DNA from: an uncultured Chloroflexota bacterium
Lineage (GTDB): Bacteria > Chloroflexota > Anaerolineae > Anaerolineales > Villigracilaceae
Length of the DNA: 35,752 bases
Direction: 5' to 3'
Assembly (NCBI GenBank): GCA_903914955.1
Contig: CAIWRB010000155.1
Span: 1-35,752 of the forward strand
Below, one piece after another: positions 21,291 through 35,740 of the stretch. Under the pieces are notes generated by a model. The model ran no database searches. It saw only the letters and a list, made by a program, of their open reading frames with translations, and was not told where the DNA came from. A program made the position numbers and the translations under genes. How positions within the stretch are numbered: the first letter of the stretch is position 1; each line of letters opens with the position of its first letter.

Positions 21291-22349
21291 TTATAAAATT
21301 TTTATAATTTCATCCGCCATCTGACGGGTCGTTAACTTGCCGCCAATGTCCGCGGTGCGCGCGCCAGCGGTGATCGTTTGCTCAACAGCTTTTTCAATTG
21401 CCGCTGCTTCTGCTTCCAACTTCAATGAATGACGTAATAACATTGCGGATGAGAGAATCGTTCCAGTTGGATTTGCGATTCCTTTGCCTGCGATGTCCGG
21501 CGCGGACCCGTGGATCGGTTCATACAACCCGACAGTGGCTTCTCCCAAACTGGCAGATGGCAGCATCCCCATTGATCCTGCCAAAACCGACGCCTCGTCC
21601 GTGAGGATGTCGCCGAACATATTCTCAGTGACAATCACATCCATCCACGCGGGTCCAGTGATCAGCCGCATGGACGCGGTATCCACCAGCGTATGTTCAA
21701 GCTCGATATCAGGATTCTCTTTTCCAACTTTAGTCGCGATCTGCCGCCATAATCGAGATGACTCTAACACGTTGGCCTTATCCACAGAAGTGACTTTCTT
21801 CTTGCGGCCTTTCGCCAAATTGAATGCCAGTTCCATCACGCGGCGGATTTCGTAATCATAATATTCAAGCGTATCGACAGCGCGCTCGCGGCCGTCTTTG
21901 ATGTCGCGTCCCTTGGGCCAGCCGAAGTACAGACCGCCCGTGAGTTCGCGCACGACGAGAATATCCACGCCTTGCAATTTTTCAGGCTTGAGCGGAGACC
22001 ATTCCATCAGCGCAGGATGCACTTTCACAGGGCGAAGATTTGCAAATACACCAAGACCTTTACGTAAAGCGAGAAGGCCGCGTTCAGGGCGATCTTTCGC
22101 CGTTGGGTCATCCCATTTCGGGCCACCCACTGCGCCGAGCAAAACCGCATCTGCTGATTGACAATCGGCGAGAGTTTCATCAGTCAAAGATGAACCATAA
22201 GCATCGATCGAACAGCCGCCCATTAAGCGCTCTTTGTATTCGAAGGTGTGATTATATTTACTGGCAATGAAATCCAGCACGCGCACGGCTTCGCCTACAA
22301 CTTCAGGTCCGATGCCGTCGCCGGGGAGGAGGGTAATGTTTGCTTTCAT
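21291..22349 (-). CDS. leuB: 3-isopropylmalate dehydrogenase
   Basis: A 352-aa NAD-dependent decarboxylating dehydrogenase. It acts on 3-isopropylmalate in leucine synthesis and on 3-methylmalate in the citramalate route to isoleucine. Family marks are [14 protein letters not shown] at the N-terminus, [41 protein letters not shown], and [19 protein letters not shown] for NAD binding. The start at 22349 ([12 protein letters not shown]) is set by homology and by AAGGAATTATTC upstream; the frame stays open to 22403 without family similarity. Confidence 0.95.
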
Positions 22350-22366
22350 GAATAATTCCTTATTTT

Positions 22367-22418
22367 GGAGTGCAACGGCTTGCCGTTGTACATGCGACAG
22401 CAAGCTGTCGCACTCCAG
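22367..22418. repeat. Double-hairpin repeat between cimA and leuB
   Basis: CAACGG-CTTG-CCGTTG and TGCGACAG-CAAG-CTGTCGCA sit side by side, enclosed by GGAGTGC...GCACTCC. The result is a three-way foldback. It looks like a dispersed intergenic repeat, and no T-run follows. Confidence 0.7.
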
Positions 22419-22423
22419 AGTCT

Positions 22424-23980
22424 CTAATGCGCCACCATCAGCCCATATTCAACAGAATCTGCCAGCGCGCGCCATGAGGCCTCGATGATGTTCGTGCTCG
22501 CGCCGACGGTGCTCCAGCGGCCAGTATCATTGCGTGTGTCAATCAACACGCGGGTGATGGCTTCTGTGCCGTGGTCTGAGTCCAGAATGCGGACTTTGTA
22601 ATCAGATAAATGGAATTTTGCCACTTGCGGATAATAGCCAATCAGTGCTTTGCGTAAAGCATTGTCCATCGCGTTGACGGGGCCATTGCCTTCGGCGGCA
22701 GTATGCAGCAACTCACCCTGCACGCGGACTTTGACCATCGCTTCCGCGAAGATGCCGCGTCCCTGACGATGCTCAACGTTGACAAAAAAGTCAACAAGTT
22801 CGAAGGGGGCTTTGTAGCCGTATTCCTGGCGCTTCAACATCATGGTTACGGATGCTTCTGCTGCTTCAAAGGAGAATCCGCGCGCTTCGAGTTCTTTGAC
22901 TTCGTTGAGCACACCGACCACTTCTTCACCTTCGACTTCAACGCCATGTTCCTCAGCTTTGCTCAACAAATTGCCACGGCCTGAAAGGTCAGAGACCACC
23001 ACGCGCATTTTATTGCCGACAAGTTCAGGGGTGATGTGTTGGTACGATTGTGCGTTGCGCCTCATCGCAGCGACATGCACGCCGCCTTTATGCGCGAACG
23101 CAGATTTGCCCACGAATGGCAAATGGTCATCGGGCGTGATGTTGGCAACTTCCGCGACGAAATGCGAAAGGTCATACAGTTTGCTGATATTTCCATTGGG
23201 CAAACATTCATAACCCATCTTAAGTTCGAGGTCAGCCATGATGGAGACGAGGTTGGCATTGCCGCAGCGTTCTCCAACGCCATTGATCGTGCCTTGCACT
23301 TGAATTGCGCCTTCGCGCACCGCCATCAACGCATTGACCACAGCACACTCGCCGTCGTTATGAGTGTGGATCCCGAATGGGGTTTTTATAACCAGCTTCA
23401 AGTCACGAACGATGCGCTCTACTTCCCAGGGCAATGTTCCACCGTTGGTATCGCATAGGATGATGGTCTCCGCTCCGCCGCGAATCGCGGCTTGCAAAGT
23501 TTCCAACGCATAGGATGAATCCGCTTTGTAGCCATCGAAGAAATGTTCGGCATCATAAATGACTCGCTTGTTATTGGATTTGAGATACGCGACAGATTGT
23601 TCGATGATACGAAGATTATCTTCGGGCGTGGTTTGCAAAACTTCCTTTACGTGCAGAGTCCAGGTTTTGCCAAAGATGGTGCAAACTGGCGTATTGGAAT
23701 CGAGCAGGGCTTTGATGTTGGCATCACCTTCGGGGCCGCCTTTCACGCGGCAGGTGGAGCCGAACGCCGCGATAAGCGCGTTCTTCCATTGCATGTCGCG
23801 CGCTCGCTCAAAGAATTCAACATCCTTCGGATTCGAACCAGGCCAGCCGCCTTCTATGAATGCCACACCGAAATCATCGAGATGCTGCGCAACGCGGACT
23901 TTGTCGTTGGCTGAAAGCGTGAAGCCTTCAGACTGCGTTCCGTCGCGGAGAGTTGTATCGTAGATTTGTATTTTTGTCAT
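22424..23980 (-). CDS. cimA: (R)-citramalate synthase, CimA type
   Basis: A 518-aa member of the LeuA/homocitrate synthase family. It starts [19 protein letters not shown], where the TQSEGF motif (rather than EQSPG of LeuA) marks the CimA/TIGR00977 group. Other marks are [64 protein letters not shown] and a C-terminal LeuA-dimer regulatory domain. It condenses pyruvate and acetyl-CoA to citramalate, the entry to isoleucine without threonine. True LeuA is encoded separately in the same operon, which supports the split of roles. Confidence 0.9.
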
Positions 23981-24009
23981 GGTTTCTCTTTTTTGACAAT
24001 GGATGATTG

Positions 24010-24057
24010 GCCGTAGACCGTGAGTGCACCATCCATGGTCTGTGGTCTACGGTCTAT
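24010..24057. repeat. Heptad repeat at the leuD stop codon
   Basis: On the + strand GGTCTGT, GGTCTAC and GGTCTAT (24037-24057) follow one another, with complementary GTAGACC near 24013. The leuD stop (24047-24049) and its last codons (Asn-Arg-Pro) are encoded by these units. Confidence 0.7.
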
Positions 24058-24628
24058 TTTCAAAGGCAAAAATTTCTTTTTCAAATCCGAGGATGTAGCC
24101 AAGCTCATCCACGCCATTGAGCAAACAGGTTTTGTTGAACGGGTCGATCGGGAAATTCACTGTGCCATTCGGCAGGATAAGAGTCTGCGACGCAAGATCA
24201 ACTGTGACTTCGGCATTCGGAATTTCTTCGACGAGGTCAAATAACATTTTGTGAGTCGATTCATCCACGATGATCGGAATGAGTCCATTCTTGAGAGAGT
24301 TATTGCGAAAGATATCTGCGAAGGATGTGGAAATGACCGCTTTGAATCCGAAACCAGTTAGCGCCCAGGGAGCGTGTTCACGGCTCGAACCGCAGCCGAA
24401 GTTGTCACCAGCCAATAGAATTTGTGCACCTTGTGAGTTGGGCTGGTTGAGGATGAAGTCTGCTTTGGGAGAGCCGTCAGCGTTATAACGCCAGTCAGCG
24501 AAGAGATTGTCACCCATGCCTTTTTTGTCGGTGGCTTTGAGAAAGCGCGCGGGGATGATCTGGTCTGTGTCAATGTCGTTGGCAGGCAGAGGGAGTACGC
24601 GGGAAGTTAATGTTGTGAATTGAGCCAT
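24047..24628 (-). CDS. leuD: 3-isopropylmalate dehydratase, small subunit
   Basis: A 193-aa swivel domain partner of LeuC; together they isomerise 2- to 3-isopropylmalate, and citramalate to 3-methylmalate. It starts [30 protein letters not shown] and has [17 protein letters not shown], the phosphate-binding loop typical of the family. The start at 24628 has GAAGGAAAACTT upstream; an earlier Met at 24688 is not family-like. It is separated from leuC by an inserted antisense HNH gene. Its last codons and stop lie in a heptad repeat. Confidence 0.95.
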
Positions 24629-24698
24629 AAGTTTTCCTTCTTTAAAAATTAGTTTATACTTATTTTCATCTCTTACATTTTCGTCCAAGGAGTGGACA

Positions 24699-25416
24699 AT
24701 GGCGATCGTGTATCAAAACGATACTGCGGGAAAAATCTGTGCAAATCCTGATTGCGGGTGGAAACCTTTGACTGAGTTTCATCGACGCAGATTGCTAGGT
24801 ATATCTGTCGGCGATGGCTACAAAGCTCGTTGTAAAGATTGTTTAAACGCTCAAGATCGAGCCAAATGGGCTTCTGACCCTGAAACACATCGCCAAAAAG
24901 CAACGCGATCGTGTTGCAAAAAAACAAGATCATATTCGCGAACTAAAACGTGCCCATCAAAAAGCACATCCTGAGAAATATGAGGAAGCGCTTCGTAAAT
25001 ATCGTGAAACGCACCGTGAGAATATAAACGCCAAAGCACGAGAACGTCGCCAAACGGACTTGGAACACTATCGCGAAATCGGTCGAAAGTCTCGTGACAA
25101 ATACGCCGAGGAGCGCAATGCCTATCAACGAGAGTACGGAAAAGAAAATCGCGACAAATTAACATTATTCACAAATATTCGCCGCGCAAGAAAATTGGCA
25201 GCAGAAGGCTCTCACACAGATAAGGAATGGCAATCCTTGAAAGCATTCTATGATTACAAATGCCTATGCTGTGGAAAACGAGAACCTGAAATTCGGTTAA
25301 CTCGCGACCATGTTATTCCTTTAACCAAGGGTGGCACAGATTCAATTGATAATGTTCAACCGTTATGTGCTCGTTGTAACAGTAAAAAGAACAACAAGCA
25401 AATTGACTATCGTTAA
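24699..25416 (+). pseudogene. HNH endonuclease gene with a +1 frameshift, antisense inside the ilv-leu operon
   Basis: The gene starts at ATG 24699 behind AAGGAG. The first frame gives an N-terminal Cys cluster (KICANPDCGW ... RCKDCLNAQDRAKW). The frame is then lost near an A5 run at 24895-24899. Removing one A there joins it to a frame that runs on to 25416: a charged helical region (KKQDHIRELKRAHQKAHPEK ..., about residues 70-150), then a complete HNH domain with CLCCGKREPE, RDHVIPLTKGG and LCARCNSKKNNK. The repaired protein would have 238 aa. The shift may be a true mutation, a homopolymer assembly error, or recoding. Base composition looks more AT-rich than the flanking leu genes, which suggests acquisition. 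It ends 2 bp from the leuC stop. Confidence 0.8.
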
Positions 25417-25418
25417 AG

Positions 25419-26822
25419 TTATTCTAAGATAGTGCGAGGGTCAGTTACTACACCATTTATCGCCGTGGCAGCAGCAGTAACTGGACTAACTAAGAAAGTA
25501 CGCGAACCTTTTCCCTGACGGCCTTCAAAATTGCGATTGCTTGTAGAGACTGCGTATTGTCCAGAAGGAACGAAGTCCCCGTTCATGCTAATGCATAACG
25601 AGCAGCCTGCTTCACGCCATTCTGCGCCAGCTTCTTTAAATATCTTATCGAGGCCTTCCTGCTCTGCCTGCTTTTTCACATCTTGCGAACCGGGGACAAT
25701 CATAAGGCGAAGTCCTTCAGCAACTTTATTTCCTTTGAGCATTGCAGCGGCGAGTCGCAAGTCAGAGATGCGCGAGTTGGTACAGCTTCCGATGAAAACC
25801 ACATCCACTTTTTTGCCGAGCAGGGATTGACCAGCTTCAAGTCCCATGTAGATCAATGCTTTTTCGAAGGCGGCTTTTTGGGAAGGTTCAGTAAATGATT
25901 CTATAGTGGGCACTCGATCCGTGATCTTCATACCCATGCCGGGATTTGTGCCGTAGGTGATCATCGGCTCAAGTTCGGAGGCTTCAAGTGTGATGGACTT
26001 GTCATAGGTTGCGCCTTCGTCACTCGGTAATGTTTTCCAGTACGCAACAGCCTTGTCCCAATCCGCGCCTTTGGGGGATGCTTCGCGGCCTTTGAGATAT
26101 TCAAAGGTCACTTCATCGGGAGCGATCATACCCGCGCGCGCGCCGCCTTCAATAGACATGTTGCAGATGGTCATGCGCTGTTCCATTGTCAAGCCGCGGA
26201 TGGCTTCGCCTGTGAATTCAAAGACGTGCCCCGTCCCCCCGCCGACGCCGATCCGGGCGATCAAGGCGAGAATAATATCCTTGGCGGAAACGCCTTGTGA
26301 CAATGTCCCATTCACGCGGACTTCGTAAGTCTTTGGTTTATTTTGAAGCAAACATTGAGTCGCGAGAACATGCTCGACTTCAGAGGTGCCGATGCCGAAA
26401 GCCAGCGCACCGAACGCGCCGTGTGTGGCGGTGTGACTGTCGCCGCAGACGATGGTCATGCCGGGTTGGGTGCGGCCAAGTTCAGGTCCGATGACATGCA
26501 CAATCCCGCGGTGCGGACTGGTCATGCCGTGCAGTGTGATTCCAAATTCAGCGGCGTTGGTTTCCATCTGCTTGATCTGCGCGGCGGCCATTGCATCGGC
26601 GATGGGCACATCGATGGGAGTCGTCGGGATGGAATGATCCATGGTGGCGAGAGTTTTTTCAGGGCGGCGAACTTTCAGTCCGCGCTGACGCAGGCCCGTG
26701 AAGGCTTGCGGGGAAGTGACTTCATGCACGAGATGCAAGTCAATGTAAAGGACTGCGGGGGATTCATGCTGTTCTGCAACAACGTGCGATTCCCAAATTT
26801 TGTCAAAGAGAGTTTTAGGCAT
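25419..26822 (-). CDS. leuC: 3-isopropylmalate dehydratase, large subunit
   Basis: A 467-aa aconitase-family subunit that carries the [4Fe-4S] cluster. It starts [15 protein letters not shown]; marks are [32 protein letters not shown], the cluster Cys in [14 protein letters not shown], and [10 protein letters not shown]. Partner of LeuD. No clear Shine-Dalgarno precedes the start; a heptad repeat (GATTTAC twice on the + strand) sits there instead, and the stop of the 57-aa ORF lies 15 bp upstream, so coupling to that ORF is possible. Confidence 0.95.
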
Positions 26823-26828
26823 ATTTTG

Positions 26829-26842
26829 ATTTACGATTTACG
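26829..26842. repeat. Two GATTTAC heptads between the 57-aa ORF and leuC
   Basis: GATTTAC is repeated exactly on the + strand. The stop codon of the 57-aa ORF is formed by the second unit. Confidence 0.6.
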
Positions 26843-27011
26843 ATGAGTAAGATTCGCTATTAGCGGAATCATCTGCCGCTTGAGTAGAAGCGGGCTCGGG
26901 CGTGGAAAAGAATCCGCTTGTGTCCCAGCCAGAGGGAATGGTCTGCGGTTCGGGGAACGGGTTGTATGCCGAGGAGTAGACAATGTCCTGATCTTCGTCT
27001 TGAGTGGTCAT
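26838..27011 (-). CDS. Small acidic protein of 57 aa between leuA and leuC
   Basis: It starts at 27011 with a strong ribosome binding site (AAAGGAG, 8-base spacing) and reads MTTQDEDQDIVYSSAYNPFP, then a Pro/Ser/Thr-rich stretch (IPSGWDTSGFFSTPEPAST) to a Ser/Asp-rich end. It is acidic, has no hydrophobic helix and no Cys, and looks disordered. I know no family. The good start and its place in the operon argue for translation, but it might be a recent or decaying ORF. Confidence 0.5.
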   Translation of the reverse strand: MTTQDEDQDIVYSSAYNPFPEPQTIPSGWDTSGFFSTPEPASTQAADDSANSESYSS

Positions 27012-27042
27012 GGTAATTTCTCCTTTTTTTAGCTACACCGTT

Positions 27043-27164
27043 GGTTGAGTAGGGCGAAGATTTTCTCGCCCGTATCGAAACCAACAGATTACAAAAAATT
27101 TTTTGTAATGGTAGTTTTCTCATTCACTGGTGGTTTCGATACGCTGCTTCGCAGCTACTCAACC
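27043..27164. repeat. Inverted pair of GGTTGAGTAG...GTATCGAAACC repeats around a perfect 22-bp palindrome
   Basis: Copy one (27043-27082) has the ends GGTTGAGTAG and GTATCGAAACC around a GGGCGA/TCGCCC hairpin. Copy two (27132-27164) is the reverse, GGTTTCGATAC...CTACTCAACC, around GCTGC-TTC-GCAGC. Between them ATTACAAAAAA is followed at once by its complement (27088-27109). The whole can fold into a large cruciform. Confidence 0.8.
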
Positions 27165-27178
27165 ACCGGGTTTTATGG

Positions 27179-28816
27179 CTATCCAAGCATGACGCCAAAA
27201 TCATTATGCACGGGCTGCACGCCTTCAGTTTTAGCGATGATCAATTTATTGAGCGCGTTGATATACGCCTTTGCGCTGGCGACGATGATATCCATATCCG
27301 CGCCATGACCGCCATAGACGCGTGCATATTCAAGTTCACTTTGCGCATCCATTTTTGTGTCACCGCTGTTGTCGCTTTGTATGCGGACAGTCACTTCGCC
27401 GAGTGCGTCAATACCTTCAGTGATGGCGTGAATATTGAACTCAAGAAGTTTGCACGGTGTTTTGACAATTGCATCAATGGCTTTGTAAGCCGCGTCGACG
27501 GGGCCAGTGCCCATCGAAGCGAAGTTGTAAACGGTGCGGTCAGGTCCGCGCAAACGGACGGTGGCGGTGGGCATGCCGAGCGTTCCGCATGAAACCTGCA
27601 AGCCTTCAAGATAATACACATCACGCGGACGATAGAATTCGTCGGCGATCACAGCTTCGAGATCGGCGTCAGTAATAACCTTCTTGCGGTCGGCCAATTC
27701 TTTAAAACGTATAAATGCTTTATCGAGTTCCGCTTCGTCGAGTGAATGTCCCATGATGGCGAGACGCGCCCGCAATGCAGCGCGACCAGAATGTTTACCC
27801 ATCACCAAAGTAGTTTGATTGACGCCAACATCCTCAGGGCGCATGATCTCATACGTAGTCTGATGCTTAAGCATTCCATCCTGATGAATTCCCGCTTCAT
27901 GCGCGAACGCATTTGCGCCGACAATGGCTTTGTTCGGCTGAACAACAATACCCGTGTAATTGCTGACCAGTTTGCTGACGCGCGAAAGCTGCTGCGTTTC
28001 AATTCCCGTTTCAAGATTGAAAACAGGATGGCGGGTCTTGAGCGCCATCACAACTTCTTCGAGCGATGTATTGCCTGCGCGTTCGCCAATGCCATTGATG
28101 GTCACTTCAGCCTGACGCGCGCCCGCCTGAATTCCAGCGAGAGCATTCGCGGTTGCCATACCAAGATCATCATGGCAATGCACAGAAACGGTAATGCCAT
28201 CGTGCATGCCGGGCGTGTGCTTGATAACACCATCGATCAATTTGAAATATTCATCGGGAGTGGTGTAGCCGACCGTATCGGGAATGTTGAGCGTTGTCGC
28301 GCCAGAATTGATCGCTTCGCCCAAAACAACATATAAAAACTCAGGGTCAGAGCGCCCCGCATCTTCGGGACTAAACTCAACGTCCGCGCATAAAGTCCGC
28401 GCATACGCGACCATCTCTGAAACACGCTGCACCACTTCTTCAGGATCCATCTTGAGTTTATGCTTCATATGGATCGATGACGTAGCGAGGAAGGTATGAA
28501 TGCGCGGTTTCTGCGCATCTTTGACAGCCTCCCAGGCTTTATCGATATCGGATTTATTTGCGCGCGCCAGGCCTGTGATGGTGGGGACTTTCGCATCAGG
28601 CTCCGCTTTGGGCGGGTTGCCTACTTCGACAGCGATTCGTCTGACAGCTTCCAGATCGTCCGGCGAAGCGGCAGGAAATCCCGCTTCGATAATGTCCACA
28701 CCCATACGCGCCAGCGAACGAGCAACTTCCAGCTTCTCAGCAGAGGTCATCGTCGCGCCAGGTGACTGTTCGCCATCGCGCAGAGTGGTGTCGAAAATTT
28801 TCACATAATTACTCAT
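27179..28816 (-). CDS. leuA: 2-isopropylmalate synthase
   Basis: A 545-aa enzyme that condenses 2-oxoisovalerate with acetyl-CoA, the first committed step of leucine synthesis. It starts [23 protein letters not shown]; the EQSPG motif is that of LeuA. Others are [70 protein letters not shown] and a full C-terminal regulatory (leucine-binding) domain with [29 protein letters not shown]. The start at 28816 has GAGGAG upstream; a GTG at 28834 overlaps that site and is unlikely. Confidence 0.95.
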
Positions 28817-28837
28817 AAAAATATATCTCCTCACTCA

Positions 28838-28880
28838 CCCCTTGCCCCTCCGAAACAGAGAGGGGTTGGGCTGAGGGAAA
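28838..28880. repeat. CCCCTT/GGGG-type palindromic repeat between ilvC and leuA
   Basis: CTCACCCCTTGCCCCTC and GAGGGGTTGGGCTGAG are near inverse complements around CGAAACAGA. It belongs to the common class of C/T-rich inverted intergenic repeats; related C/T- and G/A-rich blocks occur near 30620-30700 and 34141-34185. Confidence 0.65.
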
Positions 28881-28882
28881 AA

Positions 28883-29935
28883 TTACTTCTTCCAATTCTC
28901 AGGTCGTAATGAACGGACCGCCGCGCCAGCCTGCCACATTTCAGAATCATGGAAGGCGGCTAATTCTTCTTCCAATTTTTCTCGATAATCATCGCGGCTG
29001 TTGGCTTCGAGTGTGATGCGGGCTTCGTTGCCAGTGACCACGGATTCATAGAGCGCGTCAAACACAGGCGCAACCGCATCGCGAAAACGCGGATGCCAAT
29101 CCAATGCGCCGCGTTGAGCGGTGGTGGAACAATTTGCATACATAAAGTCCATGCCGTTCTCGCCGACGAGACGGATCAGAGATTGTGTCAACTCTTCAAC
29201 AGTTTCGTTAAAGGCTTCGGAAGGAGAATGTCCATGCTTGCGGAGGACGTTGTACTGCGCCTCCATCACCCCAGAGAGTGCGCCGATGAGAACACCGCGC
29301 TCACCTGTCAGATCGCTGTAGACTTCATTCTTAAATGTGGTTGGGAATAAATATCCCGCGCCGATGGCGATGCCCAAAGCAATGGCGCGTTCATTCGCGC
29401 GGCCCGTATGATCTTGATGAACTGCGTAACTGGCGTTGATTCCGCTGCCCGCTAAAAAGTTGCGGCGGACACTTGTGCCCGAACCTTTCGGCGCGACGAG
29501 AGCCACATCCACATGCGGAGGAGGGATAACGCCTGTGTCATCTTTGAATGTGACAGAGAAGCCGTGCGAGAAGTACAACATGTCGCCTTCGTTCAAACAT
29601 TCAACGATCTTCGGCCACTGTGAGCGTTGACCTGCGTCTGAGAGCAAGTACTGAATGACAGTTCCTTTTTCCGCGGCTTCTTCAACATTAAATAAAGTTT
29701 TGCCAGGCACCCAGCCATCAGCAATAGCTTTGTTCCAATTTTTCGTTCCTTCGCGTTGACCAACGATCACGTTGATGCCGTTGTCACGCATGTTCATCGC
29801 CTGCGCGGGTCCCTGCACGCCATAGCCAACAACAGCCACAACTTCATTCTTCAAGACTTCACGTGCCTTGTCGAGCGAAAATTCCTCGCGAGTCACCACA
29901 TCTTCCACTGTGCCACCAAAATTAATTTTTGCCAT
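28883..29935 (-). CDS. ilvC: Ketol-acid reductoisomerase
   Basis: A 350-aa class I KARI that converts acetolactate or acetohydroxybutyrate to the dihydroxy acids, with Mg2+ and NAD(P)H. The N-terminal Rossmann motif is VVGYGVQGPAQAMNMRDNG, followed by GQREGTKNW in the cofactor-specificity loop, FSHGFSVTFKDD, VAPKGSGTSVRRNFLAGSG, and the all-helical C-terminal domain with SDLTGERGVLIGALSGVMEAQ and MYANCSTTAQRGALDW. It follows ilvN with a 110-bp spacer containing heptads. A clear SD is not obvious beyond a weak TAAGGAGATTAG. Confidence 0.95.
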   Translation of the reverse strand: MAKINFGGTVEDVVTREEFSLDKAREVLKNEVVAVVGYGVQGPAQAMNMRDNGINVIVGQREGTKNWNKAIADGWVPGKTLFNVEEAAEKGTVIQYLLSDAGQRSQWPKIVECLNEGDMLYFSHGFSVTFKDDTGVIPPPHVDVALVAPKGSGTSVRRNFLAGSGINASYAVHQDHTGRANERAIALGIAIGAGYLFPTTFKNEVYSDLTGERGVLIGALSGVMEAQYNVLRKHGHSPSEAFNETVEELTQSLIRLVGENGMDFMYANCSTTAQRGALDWHPRFRDAVAPVFDALYESVVTGNEARITLEANSRDDYREKLEEELAAFHDSEMWQAGAAVRSLRPENWKK

Positions 29936-29990
29936 GATCTCTAATCTCCTTAGGATTTTTTATTATCTTTTAGATTTGAATAATTACAAA

Positions 29991-30050
29991 AGACCGTAGT
30001 CGATGGACCGTATCATTGCCAAGTCCACCGTCCACGGTTGGCTATTTACG
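29991..30050. repeat. Heptad repeat cluster at the ilvN stop codon
   Basis: On the + strand AGACCGT, AGTCGAT and GGACCGT (29991-30011), then GTCCACC, GTCCACG, GTTGGCT and ATTTACG (30023-30050). The ilvN stop (30046-30048) is inside the last unit. Confidence 0.6.
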
Positions 30051-30612
30051 GCGCCATTTCCGCCATATCTTCATATTCATTCTCGTATCTGTTTCCAACC
30101 GCGCCTTGCTGTACACGGCGGACACCATCATTGACTCCGCGCGTCATGGAGACTTGACCCGTGCGTACCATTTCAACGATGCCGGTCGGGCGCAGAAGTT
30201 CGATCATGCCTTCAATCTTATCTTCGGTGCCGGTGATCTCAACGATCACGGAATCAGCTGCCACGTCCACGATTCTGGCGCGGAAGATTTCAGCGAGGCT
30301 GTTGACTTCGGCACGTTTTTCAGGGCCGACCATCACCTTGATCAGAGCCAGATCACGGGTCACAGAAGGTTGATGCGTGACATCCTGCACATCGATTACG
30401 TTGACCAGTTTGTAGAGATTCGCTTCTATCTTGTGCGCGTCATAATCCCCGTTGGGACAATCCACCACGACGGTCATGCGCGAGATTTCAGGTTTCTCAG
30501 TGCGCCCGACGGCCAGAGACTCGATGTTGAAATTGCGGCGCCGAAATAATGAAGCCACACGGTTCAAGACGCCAGGTTTGTTTTCTACTAAAGCAATGAA
30601 TGTGTATAACAT
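30046..30612 (-). CDS. ilvN: Acetolactate synthase, small regulatory subunit
   Basis: A 188-aa regulatory subunit that binds valine and activates IlvB. The N-terminal ACT domain is YTFIALVENKPGVLNRVASLFRRRNFNIESLAVG (about 3-36), followed by the second ACT-like half with ALIKVMVGPEKRAEVNSLAEIFRARIVDVA and EITGTEDKIEGMIELLRPTGIVEMVRTG. The tail after about residue 160 is longer and more charged than in E. coli IlvN. The ATG has AAAAGGAGAATCAA upstream. Its stop codon is within a heptad repeat. Confidence 0.94.
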   Translation of the reverse strand: MLYTFIALVENKPGVLNRVASLFRRRNFNIESLAVGRTEKPEISRMTVVVDCPNGDYDAHKIEANLYKLVNVIDVQDVTHQPSVTRDLALIKVMVGPEKRAEVNSLAEIFRARIVDVAADSVIVEITGTEDKIEGMIELLRPTGIVEMVRTGQVSMTRGVNDGVRRVQQGAVGNRYENEYEDMAEMAP

Positions 30613-30706
30613 TTGATTCTCCTTTTACCCTCATCCCTGCTCTTCCCTCGTGGGGAAGGGAGTCCCATCTCCTTTTGGGAGAGGACTCGAGTGAGAGAAT
30701 TTTTCT
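30613..30706. repeat. Two-hairpin spacer between ilvB and ilvN
   Basis: On the minus strand GAGTCC-TCTCC ... GGAGA-TG-GGACTC forms an 11-bp interrupted hairpin, and CTTCCC/GGGAAG a second. The ribosome binding site of ilvN is kept just after it. No U-run. Confidence 0.6.
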
Positions 30707-32392
30707 TTACGCCTTCGCAGGCCTCTGTAACATATGATCCAATGCCGCACCTGCGGGAACCATCGGATAGACCGCATCTTCCTGCTCCACGCGGAACTCG
30801 ATCACTGTCGGGCCTGTGATGCTGCGTGCCCACGCGATGGCTTCATCCACTTCTTCGCGTTTGGTGACTCGTCTTGCAGGGACTCCGTGCGCTTCGGCAA
30901 GTTTCACAAAATCAGGTGAGAGCATGTTGACAGCAGAGTAACGCTTCTCAAAGAAGAACTCCTGCCATTGCCGCACCATGCCGAGGAAACTATTGTTCAT
31001 GATCGCGACTTTCACATTCGCCTGCTCTTGCACAGCAGTGGTCAATTCCGCGGCGGTCATTTGAAAACCACCGTCGCCGGCGATTGCCCAAATCTCCTGA
31101 TCCTTGTGCGCGAACCACGCGCCGATCGCAGATGGCAGACCAAACCCCATCGTGCCCGCGCCGCCAGAGGTGAGCCAGCGATTCGGTTTATCCAACGCGT
31201 AATATTGCGCGGTCCACATTTGATGTTGACCAACGTCTGTGGTCATGATCGCGCCGCCGCCGGTCGCCTTCCAAATATCGGAGATCAGATGTGGCACATA
31301 TAATTTGCCATCATCAGGCCAGTTCATAATATCGCGCGTATCAGCTTCGGCTTTCCAGTCGCTGATCTCTTTCAACCATTCATCGTGATCGTATTCATCC
31401 ACCATCGGAACAAGGTCGGTCAATATGGTTTTCAGATCGCCAACCAATGGGACATCCACGGCTACATTCTTGTGGACTTCGGATGGGTCAATTTCAATAT
31501 GAATTTTCTTTGCGCGCGGAGCGTAGGTCTTCAATGTTCCGGTCACGCGGTCATCAAAGCGCATACCAAAAGCAAGGATGAGATCGGAGTTTTGAATCGC
31601 CATGTTGGTATGGACTTCGCCATGCATACCCATCATGCCGAGACTTAGGTCATGCGAAGCAGGGAATGCGCCGAGTCCAAGCAATGTGCTTGCCACGGGT
31701 GTTTGAGTCTTCACCGCAAAGTTCATCAAAATTTCTTCGGCCTTGGAAGCCAGCACGCCATGTCCGCATAAGATGATCGGGCGCTGCGCCTTTTCAATTA
31801 GTTTCACCGCATGGTCGAGTAAATCTTTTTGTGCATGTGCAACTGGTTTATAACCGGCAAGTTTTACTTCCTCGGGATATACAAACTCACACTGCTCCAC
31901 CTGCGCGTTCTTGCAGATGTCGATCAACACGGGGCCGGGGCGTCCGCTACGAGCGATATAAAATGCTTCGCGCACAACTTCTGCAATTTCATCGGCACGT
32001 GTTATGAGGTAATTATGTTTGGTGATCGGCAAAGTAATACCAGTCACATCCACTTCTTGAAACGCGTCGCCGCCAATCAGGTGCGCGGCTACCTGCCCTG
32101 TAATAAAAACTACCGGCACAGAATCCATCATCGCCGTGGCAATGCCCGTGATGAGATTTGTCGCACCGGGTCCCGATGTCGCCATCGCCACGCCGACCCT
32201 GCCCGACGCACGCGCGTATCCGTCAGCCATGTGCGCCCCACCCTGCTCATGACGCACCAACACATGATGAATGGGATAACTTAACATCGCATCATAGATC
32301 GGCATGTTCGCCCCGCCCGGATACCCGAAGACCACTTCCACGCCTTCGCGCACCACACATTCCCACATTATTTCAGCACCTGTTTTTTTCAT
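30707..32392 (-). CDS. ilvB: Acetolactate synthase, large catalytic subunit
   Basis: A 561-aa TPP enzyme that condenses pyruvate with pyruvate or 2-oxobutyrate. It starts MKKTGAEIMWECVVREGVEV; marks are FGYPGGANMPIYDA, VRHEQGGAHMADGYARASG with the catalytic Glu, GPGATNLITGIATAMMDS, and the TPP-Mg motif GDGGFQMTAAELTTAVQEQANVKVAIMNN. The start at 32392 has AAGGAGAGCAA upstream; the frame stays open to 32524, overlapping ilvD, but that part encodes repeat sequence and is not family-like. Confidence 0.96.
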   Translation of the reverse strand: MKKTGAEIMWECVVREGVEVVFGYPGGANMPIYDAMLSYPIHHVLVRHEQGGAHMADGYARASGRVGVAMATSGPGATNLITGIATAMMDSVPVVFITGQVAAHLIGGDAFQEVDVTGITLPITKHNYLITRADEIAEVVREAFYIARSGRPGPVLIDICKNAQVEQCEFVYPEEVKLAGYKPVAHAQKDLLDHAVKLIEKAQRPIILCGHGVLASKAEEILMNFAVKTQTPVASTLLGLGAFPASHDLSLGMMGMHGEVHTNMAIQNSDLILAFGMRFDDRVTGTLKTYAPRAKKIHIEIDPSEVHKNVAVDVPLVGDLKTILTDLVPMVDEYDHDEWLKEISDWKAEADTRDIMNWPDDGKLYVPHLISDIWKATGGGAIMTTDVGQHQMWTAQYYALDKPNRWLTSGGAGTMGFGLPSAIGAWFAHKDQEIWAIAGDGGFQMTAAELTTAVQEQANVKVAIMNNSFLGMVRQWQEFFFEKRYSAVNMLSPDFVKLAEAHGVPARRVTKREEVDEAIAWARSITGPTVIEFRVEQEDAVYPMVPAGAALDHMLQRPAKA

Positions 32393-32406
32393 TTGCTCTC
32401 CTTGAT

Positions 32407-32467
32407 GTAGACCATTGACCGTTGACCGTAGACCGTAAGGTCTGTCGTCTATAGTCCACCGTCTATA
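32407..32467. repeat. Eight heptads across the ilvD-ilvB junction
   Basis: On the + strand GTAGACC, ATTGACC, GTTGACC and GTAGACC are contiguous (32407-32434). After 5 bases come GTCTGTC, GTCTATA, GTCCACC and GTCTATA (32440-32467). The ilvD stop and the codons for its last residues (Ser-Ile-Asp-Gly-Gly-Leu) are made from the second group. Confidence 0.8.
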
Positions 32468-34128
32468 GATAATATCGCGCCTGTATCTGCGCTTGTTACA
32501 AAATATGAATATCGCTTTAACCATTTAGATGTGGTTGCAGATCTGAATGGAGGTAGCGCTTCAAGCCGACTCTGGATCTCCGCATCGCTCAACTTGACGT
32601 TGATGCTGCGTGCCATCAAATCAATTTGGATTACATCCCCGGCCTTGAGCGCCGCAATCGGGCCACCCGCGGCAGCTTCCGGCGAGACGTGACCGATACA
32701 CGCGCCGCGAGTCCCTCCGCTGAAACGACCATCAGTGATGAGCGCGACTTTATCTCCGAGTCCCTGCCCCATGATCGCTGATGTGGGCGATAACATTTCT
32801 TGCATACCGGGTCCACCTTTGGGTCCTTCGTAACGCACTACAACGCAATCGCCAGCTTTGACTTTGCCCGCCAGAATTCCAGCCATTGCATCATCCTGTG
32901 ATTCAAAGATGACTGCGGGGCCTTCAAATTTCATCATGGATTGACTGACGCCACCGACTTTCACGACAGAGCCTTTGGGCGCGAGGTTGCCAAATAAAAT
33001 AGACAAGCCGCCACGTTTGGAATACGCATTTTCATATTTATGAATTACTTCTTCGTCTTTGATCTCACAGCCTTTAATCGATTCCCCCAAAGTCTTCCCG
33101 GTGACCGTCATGCGGTCAAAATGTAACATGCCTGTTCCCCGTTGGACTTCGTTCAAGATGGCAGGGATGCCGCCTGCGCGGTGAACATCTTCCATGTGCC
33201 ATTTGCCGGCAGGACTCACTTTGCAAATATGCGGCACCTTGTCTGCGACTGAGTTGATTCGTTCCAGTGGATAATTCACGTTCGCTTCGTTGGCCAATGC
33301 CAACGTGTGCAGCACCGTGTTCGATGAGCCACCCATTGCCATGTCCAGCGCGAATGCGTCATCGATCGCTTCGGCGGTGACAATGTCGCGCGGTTTGATA
33401 TCACGTTCGATCAGAGACATTATTTGCGCGGCGGCTTGCTGCGCCAATGCTTCACGTTCGGGAGTCTTCGCCAGTGCCGATCCGTTATAGGGCAGAGCGA
33501 GACCGAGCACTTCCATCAGACAGTTCATGGAGTTGGCGGTGAACATGCCAGAGCACGAACCACAGGAAGGACAGGCAAATTTTTCCAAAATGGATAAACG
33601 CTTCTCGTCAATTTTCCCCGCTGAAAATGCACCAACTCCTTCGAAGACAGAGATCAAGTCAATTGTTTCCCCGTCAGGAGTGACGCCCGCTTTCATTGGT
33701 CCACCAGAGACAAAAATGGTGGGTACGTTGACGCGCATCGCTGCCAGCAGCATGCCAGGCACTATTTTGTCGCAGTTGGGAATGCAGACCATGGCGTCGA
33801 ATCTATGAGCTTCGATCATGGTCTCGACGCAGTCAGCAATTAGTTCACGCGAAGGAAGCGAGTACTTCATCCCCATGTGACCCATCGCGATGCCGTCATC
33901 CACGCCGATGGTGTTGAACTCGAACGGGACCCCGCCCGCCGCGCGGACAGCATCCTTTACCAGTTTGCCGAAATCCTGCAAATGCACATGCCCGGGGACA
34001 ATATCCACATAAGAATTAACAATGGCAACAAAGGGTTTCTTGAAATCATCATCCTGCAAACCAGTGGCGCGTAACAATGCGCGATGCGGCGCTTTCTCAT
34101 AACCTTTTTTTACTGTGTCTGAACGCAT
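32449..34128 (-). CDS. ilvD: Dihydroxy-acid dehydratase
   Basis: A 559-aa Fe-S dehydratase that gives 2-oxoisovalerate and 2-oxo-3-methylvalerate. Cluster cysteines are in [12 protein letters not shown] and [19 protein letters not shown]; others are [52 protein letters not shown]. The C-terminus ends [14 protein letters not shown]; the usual end is near GAI/GAV, and the last six residues are encoded by heptad repeats. The ATG at 34128 has AAAAGGAGCAGC upstream. First enzyme gene of the operon, behind the attenuator. Confidence 0.96.
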
Positions 34129-34188: not shown

Positions 34189-34220
34189 AAAAAAAGAGCC
34201 GCCCGTGGTTAGGGCGGCTC
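34189..34220 (-). terminator. Attenuator terminator in the ilv-leu leader
   Basis: On the minus strand GAGCCGCCC, a 7-nt loop TAACCAC, GGGCGGCTC and then TTTTTTT. It lies between the leader peptide and ilvD, 60 bp before the ilvD start, so it can only stop transcription before the structural genes. Confidence 0.95.
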
Positions 34221-34270
34221 TTCGTACTTACTCAGTGATTTACTTTACTCTCACCGCTGCCATCCTAACC
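34207..34270 (-). promoter_or_regulatory. Antiterminator pairing of the ilv-leu attenuator
   Basis: On the minus strand GGTTAGGATGGC (34259-34270, inside the end of the leader peptide gene) can pair with GCCGCCCTAACC (34207-34218): 11 of 12 positions pair, with one A-C mismatch and one G-U. The second strand is the left arm and loop of the terminator, so the two structures exclude each other. A ribosome held at codons 19-20 would leave 34259-34270 free. Confidence 0.85.
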
Positions 34271-34344
34271 GAAAATTGATCCTTTATAATAAGGACCGCA
34301 AGGACGACTACAATAATCGAGAGGCTGAACAATGATATATTCAT
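34240..34344 (-). CDS. Branched-chain leader peptide, 34 aa
   Basis: A short ORF right after the promoter reads MNISLFSLS, then IIVVVLAVLII (residues 10-20), then KDQFSVRMAAVRVK and stop. 16 of 34 residues are Ile, Val or Leu, and 10 of 11 in the run. This is the pattern of ilvGMEDA/ilvBN leader peptides, whose translation senses charged tRNA-Ile, -Val and -Leu. It is functionally like ilvL but not evidently homologous, so I give no symbol. There is no Shine-Dalgarno, and the predicted transcript start is about 13 nt upstream. Confidence 0.9.
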   Translation of the reverse strand: MNISLFSLSIIVVVLAVLIIKDQFSVRMAAVRVK

Positions 34345-34363
34345 GGGCTTGTGATTTCGCACG

Positions 34364-34391
34364 ATTATAGGCGGATTTGAAAATCCGTCAA
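34364..34391 (-). promoter_or_regulatory. Promoter of the ilv-leu operon with a palindrome in the spacer
   Basis: On the minus strand TTGACG (34386-34391), a 16-bp spacer and TATAAT (34364-34369). The spacer is largely the inverted repeat CGGATTT-TC-AAATCCG (34372-34387), which could be an operator for a repressor. Confidence 0.85.
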
Positions 34392-34412
34392 GGGGCAAAT
34401 CAAGATTTGTTA

Positions 34413-34457
34413 GCCCAAAGTAGAAACGTCCCTTTTCGCCAAAGTTAAAATGTCCCC
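34413..34457 (+). repeat. Two tandem ~20-bp repeats at the left side of the transposase gene
   Basis: 34413-34432 (CCCAAAGTAGAAACGTCCC core) and 34437-34457 (CGCCAAAGTTAAAATGTCCC core) lie in the same direction. A third copy is at 35720-35740. They are probable transposase binding sites or element ends. Confidence 0.7.
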
Positions 34458-34473
34458 TTCGGAGGACGCGAAA

Positions 34474-35730
34474 ATGGAGCTACTACAAATGAGTACAAAA
34501 GAAATTAGCAGGCTGGAAGTGATGCAAAAGTTATTAGAGAAACGAATGAGCCAAAAGGAAGCAGGAACAATCTTGCATCTGAGTACGCGGCAAATAAAAA
34601 GGCTACTGAGGAAGTATAAAAAACAAGGTGCGGTTGGGCTGACCTCAAAACATCGTGGGCGAAAAAGTAATCATCAGTTATCGGAAGAAGTGAAGAAAAA
34701 GAGTTTGGATTTACTGAAAACAAAATGCCAAGGCTTTGGACCAACGTTGGCGCATGAGAAGCTGGTAGAAAAAGATAAGCTGCAGCTTTCTGTGGAAAGC
34801 GTGCGGAAGATGATGATCGCGGAAGACTTGTGGAAAGCGCGCAAACTGAAAAAGATCGTGACACATCAACTGCGTGAACGGCGTGCCTGTTTTGGTGAGC
34901 TGGTGCAAATTGATGGGTCGCCGCATGATTGGTTTGAAGGGCGAGCCAATCCCTGTGTGTTGCTAGTTTTTATAGATGATGCAACGGGAAAATTATTGCA
35001 GTTACAATTTGTGGACAGCGAGAGTTTTTTCAGTTACTCTCAGGCAGCTGCGGGTTATTTCAAGCGCTACGGGAAGCCAGCAGCGTTCTACAGCGACAAA
35101 CACGGTATTTTTCGAGTAAATATGCCCAGCACAGGCAAAAGCGATGCCTTGACCCAGTTTGGACGTGCAATGCAAGAACTGGATATTCAGATTATTTGTG
35201 CCAATACGCCGCAAGCCAAAGGACGCGTGGAACGTGTCAATCAAACCTTGCAAGACCGCTTACCCAAGGAAATGCGTTTGCTGAGCATTTGTAACCGCGA
35301 AGCGGGCAATTCTTATCTGCCTGAATTTATAGATGATTTTAACAAACGTTTCGCAGAAGAACCAAGAAGTTCGGTCGATGCCCACCGCAAACTTACCACT
35401 CAGGATGATCTTGTGCGTACTTTGACCTGGCAGGAAACTCGCACGGTTTCAAAAAACTTAATTGTTCAATTTGAAAATGTGGTGTATCAAATTCAAACCG
35501 AGCGTCCTACCTATGCCTTGCGAAATGCAATCATCACAGTTTGTGCCGATGCCCAGCATAACATCACGCTACTTTACAATGGCAAGTCTTTGCCCTACGT
35601 TATTTTTCATACACAGCCAAAACAATCTGAGGTAGTTCTTGCAAAAGATCTCAACCAGACCATCCAGAAAAAATTACACAAGCCTGCGTCCGATCACCCC
35701 TGGTGCTCTTACCCGCTTTCGCCAAAGTAG
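34474..35730 (+). CDS. DDE transposase, IS1202/ISNCY-like
   Basis: A 418-aa transposase from ATG 34474, chosen because GGAGG lies 9 bases upstream (an in-frame ATG at 34450 is inside the repeat). An N-terminal helix-turn-helix (about 5-60; VMQKLLEKRMSQKEAGTIL, STRQIKRLLRKYKKQGAVGL) precedes the DDE core: Asp in LVQIDGSPHDWF (about 147) and Asp in AFYSDKHGIFRV (about 205). The Glu is in KGRVERVNQTLQDRLPKEMR (about 255). The layout matches the transposases usually called ISNCY, now grouped with IS1202. The gene looks complete; the stop TAG is part of the right-hand repeat. Confidence 0.85.
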   Translation: MELLQMSTKEISRLEVMQKLLEKRMSQKEAGTILHLSTRQIKRLLRKYKKQGAVGLTSKHRGRKSNHQLSEEVKKKSLDLLKTKCQGFGPTLAHEKLVEKDKLQLSVESVRKMMIAEDLWKARKLKKIVTHQLRERRACFGELVQIDGSPHDWFEGRANPCVLLVFIDDATGKLLQLQFVDSESFFSYSQAAAGYFKRYGKPAAFYSDKHGIFRVNMPSTGKSDALTQFGRAMQELDIQIICANTPQAKGRVERVNQTLQDRLPKEMRLLSICNREAGNSYLPEFIDDFNKRFAEEPRSSVDAHRKLTTQDDLVRTLTWQETRTVSKNLIVQFENVVYQIQTERPTYALRNAIITVCADAQHNITLLYNGKSLPYVIFHTQPKQSEVVLAKDLNQTIQKKLHKPASDHPWCSYPLSPK

Positions 35731-35740
35731 AAGTGTCCCC
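35720..35740 (+). repeat. Right-hand copy of the IS flank repeat
   Basis: It matches 34437-34457 with 3 mismatches in 21 and has the same orientation. It contains the transposase stop codon. Confidence 0.7.

Follow-up and report, generated by a model that had tools for sequence, protein, structure and literature searches.

The leader in front of ilvD in the DNA analysed here, a stretch of 35,752 nt referred to below as the window, is very probably a ribosome-mediated transcription attenuator responding to the supply of isoleucine, valine and leucine. A preliminary description of this DNA had listed a promoter, a 34-codon ORF, a 12-nt strand within that ORF and a terminator with seven U, and all of these parts were found on the minus strand (Table 1).

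The leader and its operon

The first structural gene, ilvD, is accompanied on its strand by eight further genes. The nine genes together make Ile, Val and Leu, the same amino acids that the control codons of the leader specify. Given gaps of 356 nt between leuA and leuC and 730 nt between leuC and leuD, a single transcript may or may not span all nine. The nearest named IlvD relatives (97%) come from MAGs whose titles read Anaerolineales or Chloroflexi, and a Candidatus Villigracilaceae MAG follows at 91%; this agrees with the phylum named earlier, Chloroflexota, and places the window in the Anaerolineales. The ketol-acid reductoisomerase of the operon (28883-29935) scores 310 bits against TIGR00465, and 31 of 45 class-level places above the cut-off score 428-469 bits; by these scores there seem to be two IlvC types in the class.

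Table 1. Features of the leader, its operon and its flank in the window, with the tandem leaders of three relatives.
Feature	Coordinates	Strand	Details
ISNCY-family transposase gene	34450-35730	plus	directly upstream of leader; flank about 34410-35740
Promoter, sigma-70 type (predicted)	34364..34391	minus	TTGACG-N16-TATAAT; 11/12 consensus matches
-35 box	34391-34386	minus	TTGACG; then 16 nt to -10
-10 box	34369-34364	minus	TATAAT
Leader ORF	34240..34344	minus	MNISLFSLSIIVVVLAVLIIKDQFSVRMAAVRVK; 34 codons + stop; no evident Shine-Dalgarno sequence
Control codons 10-20	34285..34317	minus	IIVVVLAVLII; 10/11 codons Ile/Val/Leu
Strand 1, protector/anti-antiterminator	34301..34308	minus	GUCGUCCU; codons 13-15; pairs with 3' part of strand 2 (minimum-energy fold)
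Inner hairpin	34278..34297	minus	GGUCCUU-loop-AAGGAUC; inside ORF, between strands 1 and 2
Strand 2, antiterminator 5' half	34259..34270	minus	GGUUAGGAUGGC; codons 25-29; inside ORF
Strand 3, antiterminator 3' half	34207..34218	minus	GCCGCCCUAACC; terminator left arm + loop
Intrinsic terminator (predicted)	34189..34223	minus	12-bp stem, 7-nt loop (34223-34193); U7 34195-34189
ilvD	32449..34128	minus	first structural gene; TIGR00110
ilvB, ilvN, ilvC, leuA, leuC, leuD, cimA, leuB	21291..32524	minus	same strand as ilvD
Tandem attenuators, L094 and L095	-368 to about -35 before ilvD		second terminator read by eye
Tandem attenuators, L035 (G054)	-407 to -133 before ilvD, plus its terminator

The leader ORF ends 111 nt from ilvD, and the predicted terminator sits between the two. 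If the composition of the nine operon genes is taken as the background, a run as rich as the control run (10 or more Ile/Val/Leu among 11 codons) has a probability of 2.7e-6 per 11-codon window. The terminator hairpin has a folding energy of -22.8 kcal/mol (z -7.1), with three residues of the T7 run lying inside the stem. Strands 2 and 3 form 11 of 12 possible pairs with a single A-C mismatch (duplex energy -18.9 kcal/mol), and the 156-nt leader as a whole folds with a z of -4.1, a value that none of 200 shuffles equalled.

Two promoter-like sites were found in the 701 nt scanned, compared with 0.6 in shuffled sequences. As a rule, transcription begins about 7 nt past the -10 box; if this holds here, it would start about 12-16 nt before the leader ORF, which is the predicted length of the 5' UTR. 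The sequence common to the window and a near relative (L050) starts ~18 nt before the -35 box, and beyond this point the relative differs. The promoter beside the transposase gene is intact, but an operator further upstream, if there was one, would be displaced.

Conservation in front of ilvD and reach across the phylum

IlvD was searched in 61 genomes, 37 of the same genus (the window's own included) and 24 related at the order level. Within the genus, 36 of 37 genomes gave an IlvD match and 35 gave upstream sequence; the leader is present in all 35, the window's own among them. At the order level, 15 of 24 genomes had a match, 12 upstream regions were read and nine contain the leader. In the three loci that lack it the ilvD is distant (41-42%); L048, one of the three, has only 127 nt upstream and carries little weight. 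A further order-level genome (G046) has a distant ilvD too (44%), yet the leader is present. In L046 (G019) the leader is kept before an ilvD of just 43% identity, as if the gene had been replaced behind a retained attenuator.

The survey was extended to named loci; L029, whose contig ends at ilvD, was dropped, and removal of L117, in which ilvD is cut at the contig start, reduced 80 named loci to 79. The leader is present in 77 of these 79: in 75 it was called by a detector requiring eight Ile/Val/Leu among 11 codons plus a terminator no further than 110 nt away, and in L089 and L101 it was recognised by eye, the pattern having missed the terminators of the latter two (the hairpin of L089 has a poor U-run). 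No leader was seen upstream of ilvD in L102, titled Acidobacteria. In L113, titled Ignavibacteriae, the pattern gave no terminator; at about -253 to -112 before ilvD there is a Leu/Ile-rich ORF and then a GC-rich inverted repeat with no U-run, perhaps a translational attenuator. As controls, the detector found nothing on the antisense strand (0/79), 1.3-2 kb upstream (0/70) or in five dinucleotide shuffle sets (0/79 each). Several named loci are the same contigs as other genomes in the set, and 118 leaders reduce to 102 unique ones; this set excludes the second copy in L035 and L040 (no terminator pattern match), as well as L089 and L101. The attenuator is testable because four named strains carry the leader: Bellilinea caldifistulae, Leptolinea tardivitalis, Ornatilinea apprima and, by eye, Flexilinea flocculi.

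In the ilvD upstream regions of relatives the Ile/Val/Leu run is retained and the rest of the peptide varies, as had been anticipated for a peptide of this kind in the preliminary description. In 24 representatives below 70% identity, Ile/Val/Leu make up 70% of 413 control-region residues and F, A, M, W, C, G and Y jointly 13%; most of these leaders were picked by the detector asking 8/11, and the shares are partly built in. The run in the window, IIVVVLAVLII, is hydrophobic and could sit in a membrane, and the ORF might accordingly be read as a small functional membrane peptide, with the terminator unrelated or constitutive. We consider this very improbable: the control region is poor in the other residues just listed, outside the run, the recurrent residues are for the most part encoded in strand 2 (VRM, VGR, VWA), as an RNA constraint predicts, and strand 2 co-evolves with the terminator.

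Counted back from the end of the stop codon, the 3' end of strand 2 comes after 6-40 nt (median 18) in the 102 leaders, and the terminator stem begins 14-41 nt past that codon. Many relatives fold hairpins at a place like that of the inner hairpin, with changed bases. At 2-3 mismatches, the inner-hairpin pattern matched 16 places in the window's own genome, one of them the hairpin of the window, versus 46 for the reversed control, and a further copy was accordingly rejected.

TTGAC-N15-19-TATAAT/TATCAT/TACAAT occurs in 66 of the 102 unique leaders, no further than 60 nt ahead of the leader start, and a TATAAT-like box was found at this distance or less in 73. In 53 of these 73 the stretch from the end of the box to the ATG measures 19-23 nt, and the implied 5' UTR is about 12-16 nt long. 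An anti-SD energy of -4 kcal/mol or lower was found for 15 of 102 leader ORFs, as against 69 of 79 ilvD starts. Upstream of the -35 box, 40-130 nt before the ATG, 16 of 100 leaders (for instance L054, L025 and L046) have a CCGA-WW-CGG-like box with two variable A/T positions; it is possibly an operator and a second layer of control, and it was not found in the window.

In two lineages ilvD is preceded by two complete attenuators in tandem, each of which has an Ile/Val/Leu leader and a terminator of its own (Table 1). Elsewhere a small ORF of 42-74 codons lies between terminator and ilvD (L036, L038, L039, L100, L103, L119, L121 and L126), selected in each case for the best Shine-Dalgarno match. 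The C-termini of these ORFs are alike: YN is followed by the last one to four residues, and seven of the eight have a W some ten residues earlier. Pfam gave no match above the cut-off for six small ORFs past the terminator, one of them from L112; five of the eight with the YN ending were scanned or resemble scanned ones.

To cover a wider range, 60 genomes at the class level and 81 at the phylum level were searched for ilvC, and 100 neighbourhoods were taken. Places above the cut-off in G000, G025, G032, G110, G132, G163 and G174 were left out, as were second ilvC copies in G078, G086 and G138 and a repeat of G063; one of the 100 places taken, that of G123, scores under the cut-off, and two loci come from G142. 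Under a strict rule, the leader was found upstream on the operon strand in 38 of 100 loci (745 kb), compared with one match downstream (793 kb) and none antisense (1.63 Mb). The sole downstream match, L166, resembles the leader of another operon. A looser rule gave 44 of 100. By kinship, the strict matches comprise 4/4 loci of the same family or genus, 21/40 of the same class and 13/56 of other classes; of these 13, one is doubtful (L209, which resembles part of a longer membrane protein) and eight come from two families (f67, f77) and so are not independent. The other 62 loci gave no strict match, and the counts are lower bounds because some contigs stop before the operon start. Seven ilvC loci with no strict match, three of them in genomes of 1.4-1.7 Mb, contained no Rfam match to a T-box or any other family. 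On these comparisons, the predicted leader is not confined to the class of the window, and at least some other Chloroflexota classes have it.

Paired strands and the proposed mechanism

In the 102 leaders, the strongest pairing that the ORF end makes with the left arm plus loop of the terminator ranges from -27.9 to -11.9 kcal/mol (median -19.6). A possible search bias in such raw energies was answered by a swap test, in which strands were exchanged between genomes and the same search was made. For strands 2 and 3 of the 24 representatives, own pairs average -19.57 and swapped pairs -14.52 kcal/mol, a difference reached in 0 of 20000 permutations. For strand 2 and the region holding strand 1, the values are -13.81 and -11.73 kcal/mol (8 of 20000 permutations). 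The 28 leaders from ilvC neighbourhoods gave -19.55 versus -15.71 kcal/mol for strands 2 and 3 (0/20000); this set was chosen partly by own duplex energy, which favours own pairs, and the 24 representatives are the cleaner test. An ungapped core with eight of eight pairs is present in 41 of 61 own pairs, with 48 distinct cores, and in 19.2% of 3660 swapped pairs, a contrast that becomes weak at seven or more of eight pairs (57/61 versus 75%). In the terminator stem of 61 sequences below 85% identity, each of the innermost 8 positions shows 3 to 5 standard pair types; the share of positions paired, 485/488, follows from hairpin selection. Strands 2 and 3 co-evolve by these comparisons, and strands 1 and 2 do so more weakly; the covariation that the preliminary description had proposed to look for in relatives is thus there, both in the swap tests and in the 61-sequence core comparison. 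The leader has an alternative antiterminator that uses the left arm of the terminator, and this pairing covaries.

We propose that the attenuator would work as follows. During free translation, the ribosome behind RNA polymerase would cover strand 2 (codons 25-29), because this strand lies inside the ORF, while strands 3 and 4 emerge; behind the moving ribosome, strand 1 could re-pair with strand 2. In unstarved cells the terminator would then form and transcription would halt ahead of ilvD. With charged Ile-, Val- or Leu-tRNA in short supply, the ribosome would stall at codons 10-20, leaving strand 1 covered and strand 2 free. The free strand 2 would capture strand 3 ahead of strand 4 and block the terminator, and read-through would allow transcription of ilvD-ilvB-ilvN-ilvC and perhaps of the leu genes. 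In this scheme, the function of the terminator, the stalling, the kinetic race, the dominant amino acid and the regulation in vivo are what we infer from the arrangement of the parts.

The states of the leader were modelled by equilibrium folding of the RNA as far as the terminator loop, with the part under the ribosome masked and strand 4 not yet made. In the 102 leaders, among which the genus of the window dominates, the mean antiterminator probability is 0.28 with no ribosome, 0.80 with the ribosome at Ile/Val/Leu control codons and 0.63 at the stop codon; the corresponding values for the 24 representatives are 0.45, 0.66 and 0.49. From the ribosome-free state to the best control codon, the probability rises by more than 0.3 in 72/102 leaders and 10/24 representatives. 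In the window leader, the antiterminator stands at 0.98-0.99 with no ribosome and at A-site codons 1-21, falls to 0.08 or less at A-site codons 22-32 and returns to 0.99 at the stop codon. When the leader is folded in both states, as had been proposed earlier, relatives on average gain the antiterminator at control codons, whereas the window leader gives 0.99 with or without a stalled ribosome. A ribosome held at codons 19-20 had been suggested to expose the antiterminator strand; the Ile/Val/Leu run spans all of codons 10-20, and in the model the block starts past A-site codon 21.

An alternative interpretation of these values might be a translation-gated attenuator with another logic, in which strand 2 must be physically covered by a ribosome for the terminator to form, with no super-attenuation. 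Any failure to translate the leader, including poor initiation, would then switch the operon on, and the Ile/Val/Leu codons would merely add sensitivity. The high ribosome-free antiterminator probability of the window leader, its loss when the ribosome sits over strand 2 and the ribosome-free mean of the representatives all fit this logic, as do the leader ORF with no evident Shine-Dalgarno sequence and the position of strand 2 within the ORF in all 102 leaders. We nevertheless hold it to be unlikely. The rise at control codons seen in most of the 102 leaders and in some of the representatives is that of the protected classical design, and strands 1 and 2 co-evolve. Moreover, the calculation describes an equilibrium, and the protector can fold first, the ORF alone folding at -30.6 kcal/mol.

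In the model, equilibrium folding gives strand 1 of the window leader no protection of strand 2, and early folding of the ORF may still supply the protector role. Attenuators are generally held to be decided by the order of events. Once strand 4 is included, the terminator of the window leader dominates in the six ribosome states tried (0.91-0.98), and read-through must therefore rest on the order of events, that is, on a kinetic race. For the window leader, we infer stall-dependence from the design and from the relatives. A broader and rather doubtful reading might be that of an old, phylum-wide Chloroflexota attenuator class with a mostly SD-less, near-leaderless leader. It would occur in Anaerolineae and in one or more further classes, two lineages having it in tandem, and some members, the window's included, would read through by default and sense a moving ribosome on strand 2 and not just a stalled one on strand 1.

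Comparison with known attenuators and T-boxes

The same attenuator design controls ilvGMEDA and ilvBNC in Proteobacteria and Actinobacteria. The ilvGMEDA attenuator of Escherichia coli consists of a leader peptide with mixed Ile, Val and Leu codons, a protector, an antiterminator and a terminator with a U-run, and the window presents the same series of elements before an ilv operon. Unlike its E. coli counterpart, the window leader belongs to another phylum, has no Rfam match, shows no evident Shine-Dalgarno sequence and has a very short predicted 5' UTR; the place of strand 2 inside the ORF may be a further difference.

According to the passages of PMC11857589 consulted, transcription of Corynebacterium glutamicum ilvBNC starts one nucleotide from the leader start codon, the terminator and antiterminator hairpins overlap, and the role of H1 is called unclear. 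The three-hairpin logic of anti-antiterminator, antiterminator and terminator is shared with the window, and so is a transcription start close to the leader start codon (one nucleotide there, about 12-16 nt predicted here); the first gene (ilvB, as against ilvD) and the phylum differ (PMC11857589, same passages). The excerpted text of PMC1262725 describes candidate ilvB leaders of Actinobacteria, which resemble the window in that ilv operons are preceded by terminators and by short ORFs carrying runs of Ile, Val and Leu. Those ORFs overlap the terminator, whereas in the present leaders the stem begins past the stop codon, and in Streptomyces coelicolor a substitution of candidate codons was without effect (PMC1262725, same text).

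It should also be asked whether a ligand-binding riboswitch or a T-box could use the terminator, with the ORF being incidental. Chloroflexota do use T-boxes: the part of PMC2494555 consulted gives one ile-tRNA-ligase T-box and two trp T-boxes for Dehalococcoides, and one of eight trpE loci scanned here has an Rfam T-box before trpE (L244, an order-level relative, positions 1030-1326). For the present leader such a reading is extremely improbable, since Rfam at the gathering threshold gave no match in it (the sole window matches are two tRNAs, and the best sub-threshold match of the leader, Phe_leader, reaches 23.2 bits against a required 55), and the conserved parts seen are the codon run and the pairing strands. 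Several other trpE loci have terminators with a similar CGTCCC core, below the Rfam threshold. A Trp leader peptide before trpE was also considered at 15 of 30 trpE loci (own genome included, L240 left out), with no convincing case accompanied by a terminator. The one trpE locus, together with the Dehalococcoides T-boxes in that part of PMC2494555, hints at a split in the phylum, with ribosome attenuators for Ile/Val/Leu and T-boxes for tryptophan and ileS.

The preliminary description knew of no such case in Chloroflexota, and the open literature, as far as its accessible text goes, yielded no description of an ilv/leu attenuator in this phylum either; an earlier prediction is possible, the 2010 attenuation survey (PMID 20198868) lying outside the search. 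In the portions consulted, PMC4833913 names Chloroflexi among groups with few genomes, and PMC9413887 has Chloroflexi in its reference list only. In two Chloroflexota papers the term "leader peptide" refers to TAT signals and lanthipeptides. The design itself is classical, and its occurrence in Chloroflexota, where it is common, is apparently undescribed. Transcription attenuation of branched-chain operons is thereby extended to a deep phylum, the Chloroflexota, and the 102 unique leaders, 24 of them below 70% identity, provide a resource in which the paired strands strongly co-evolve.
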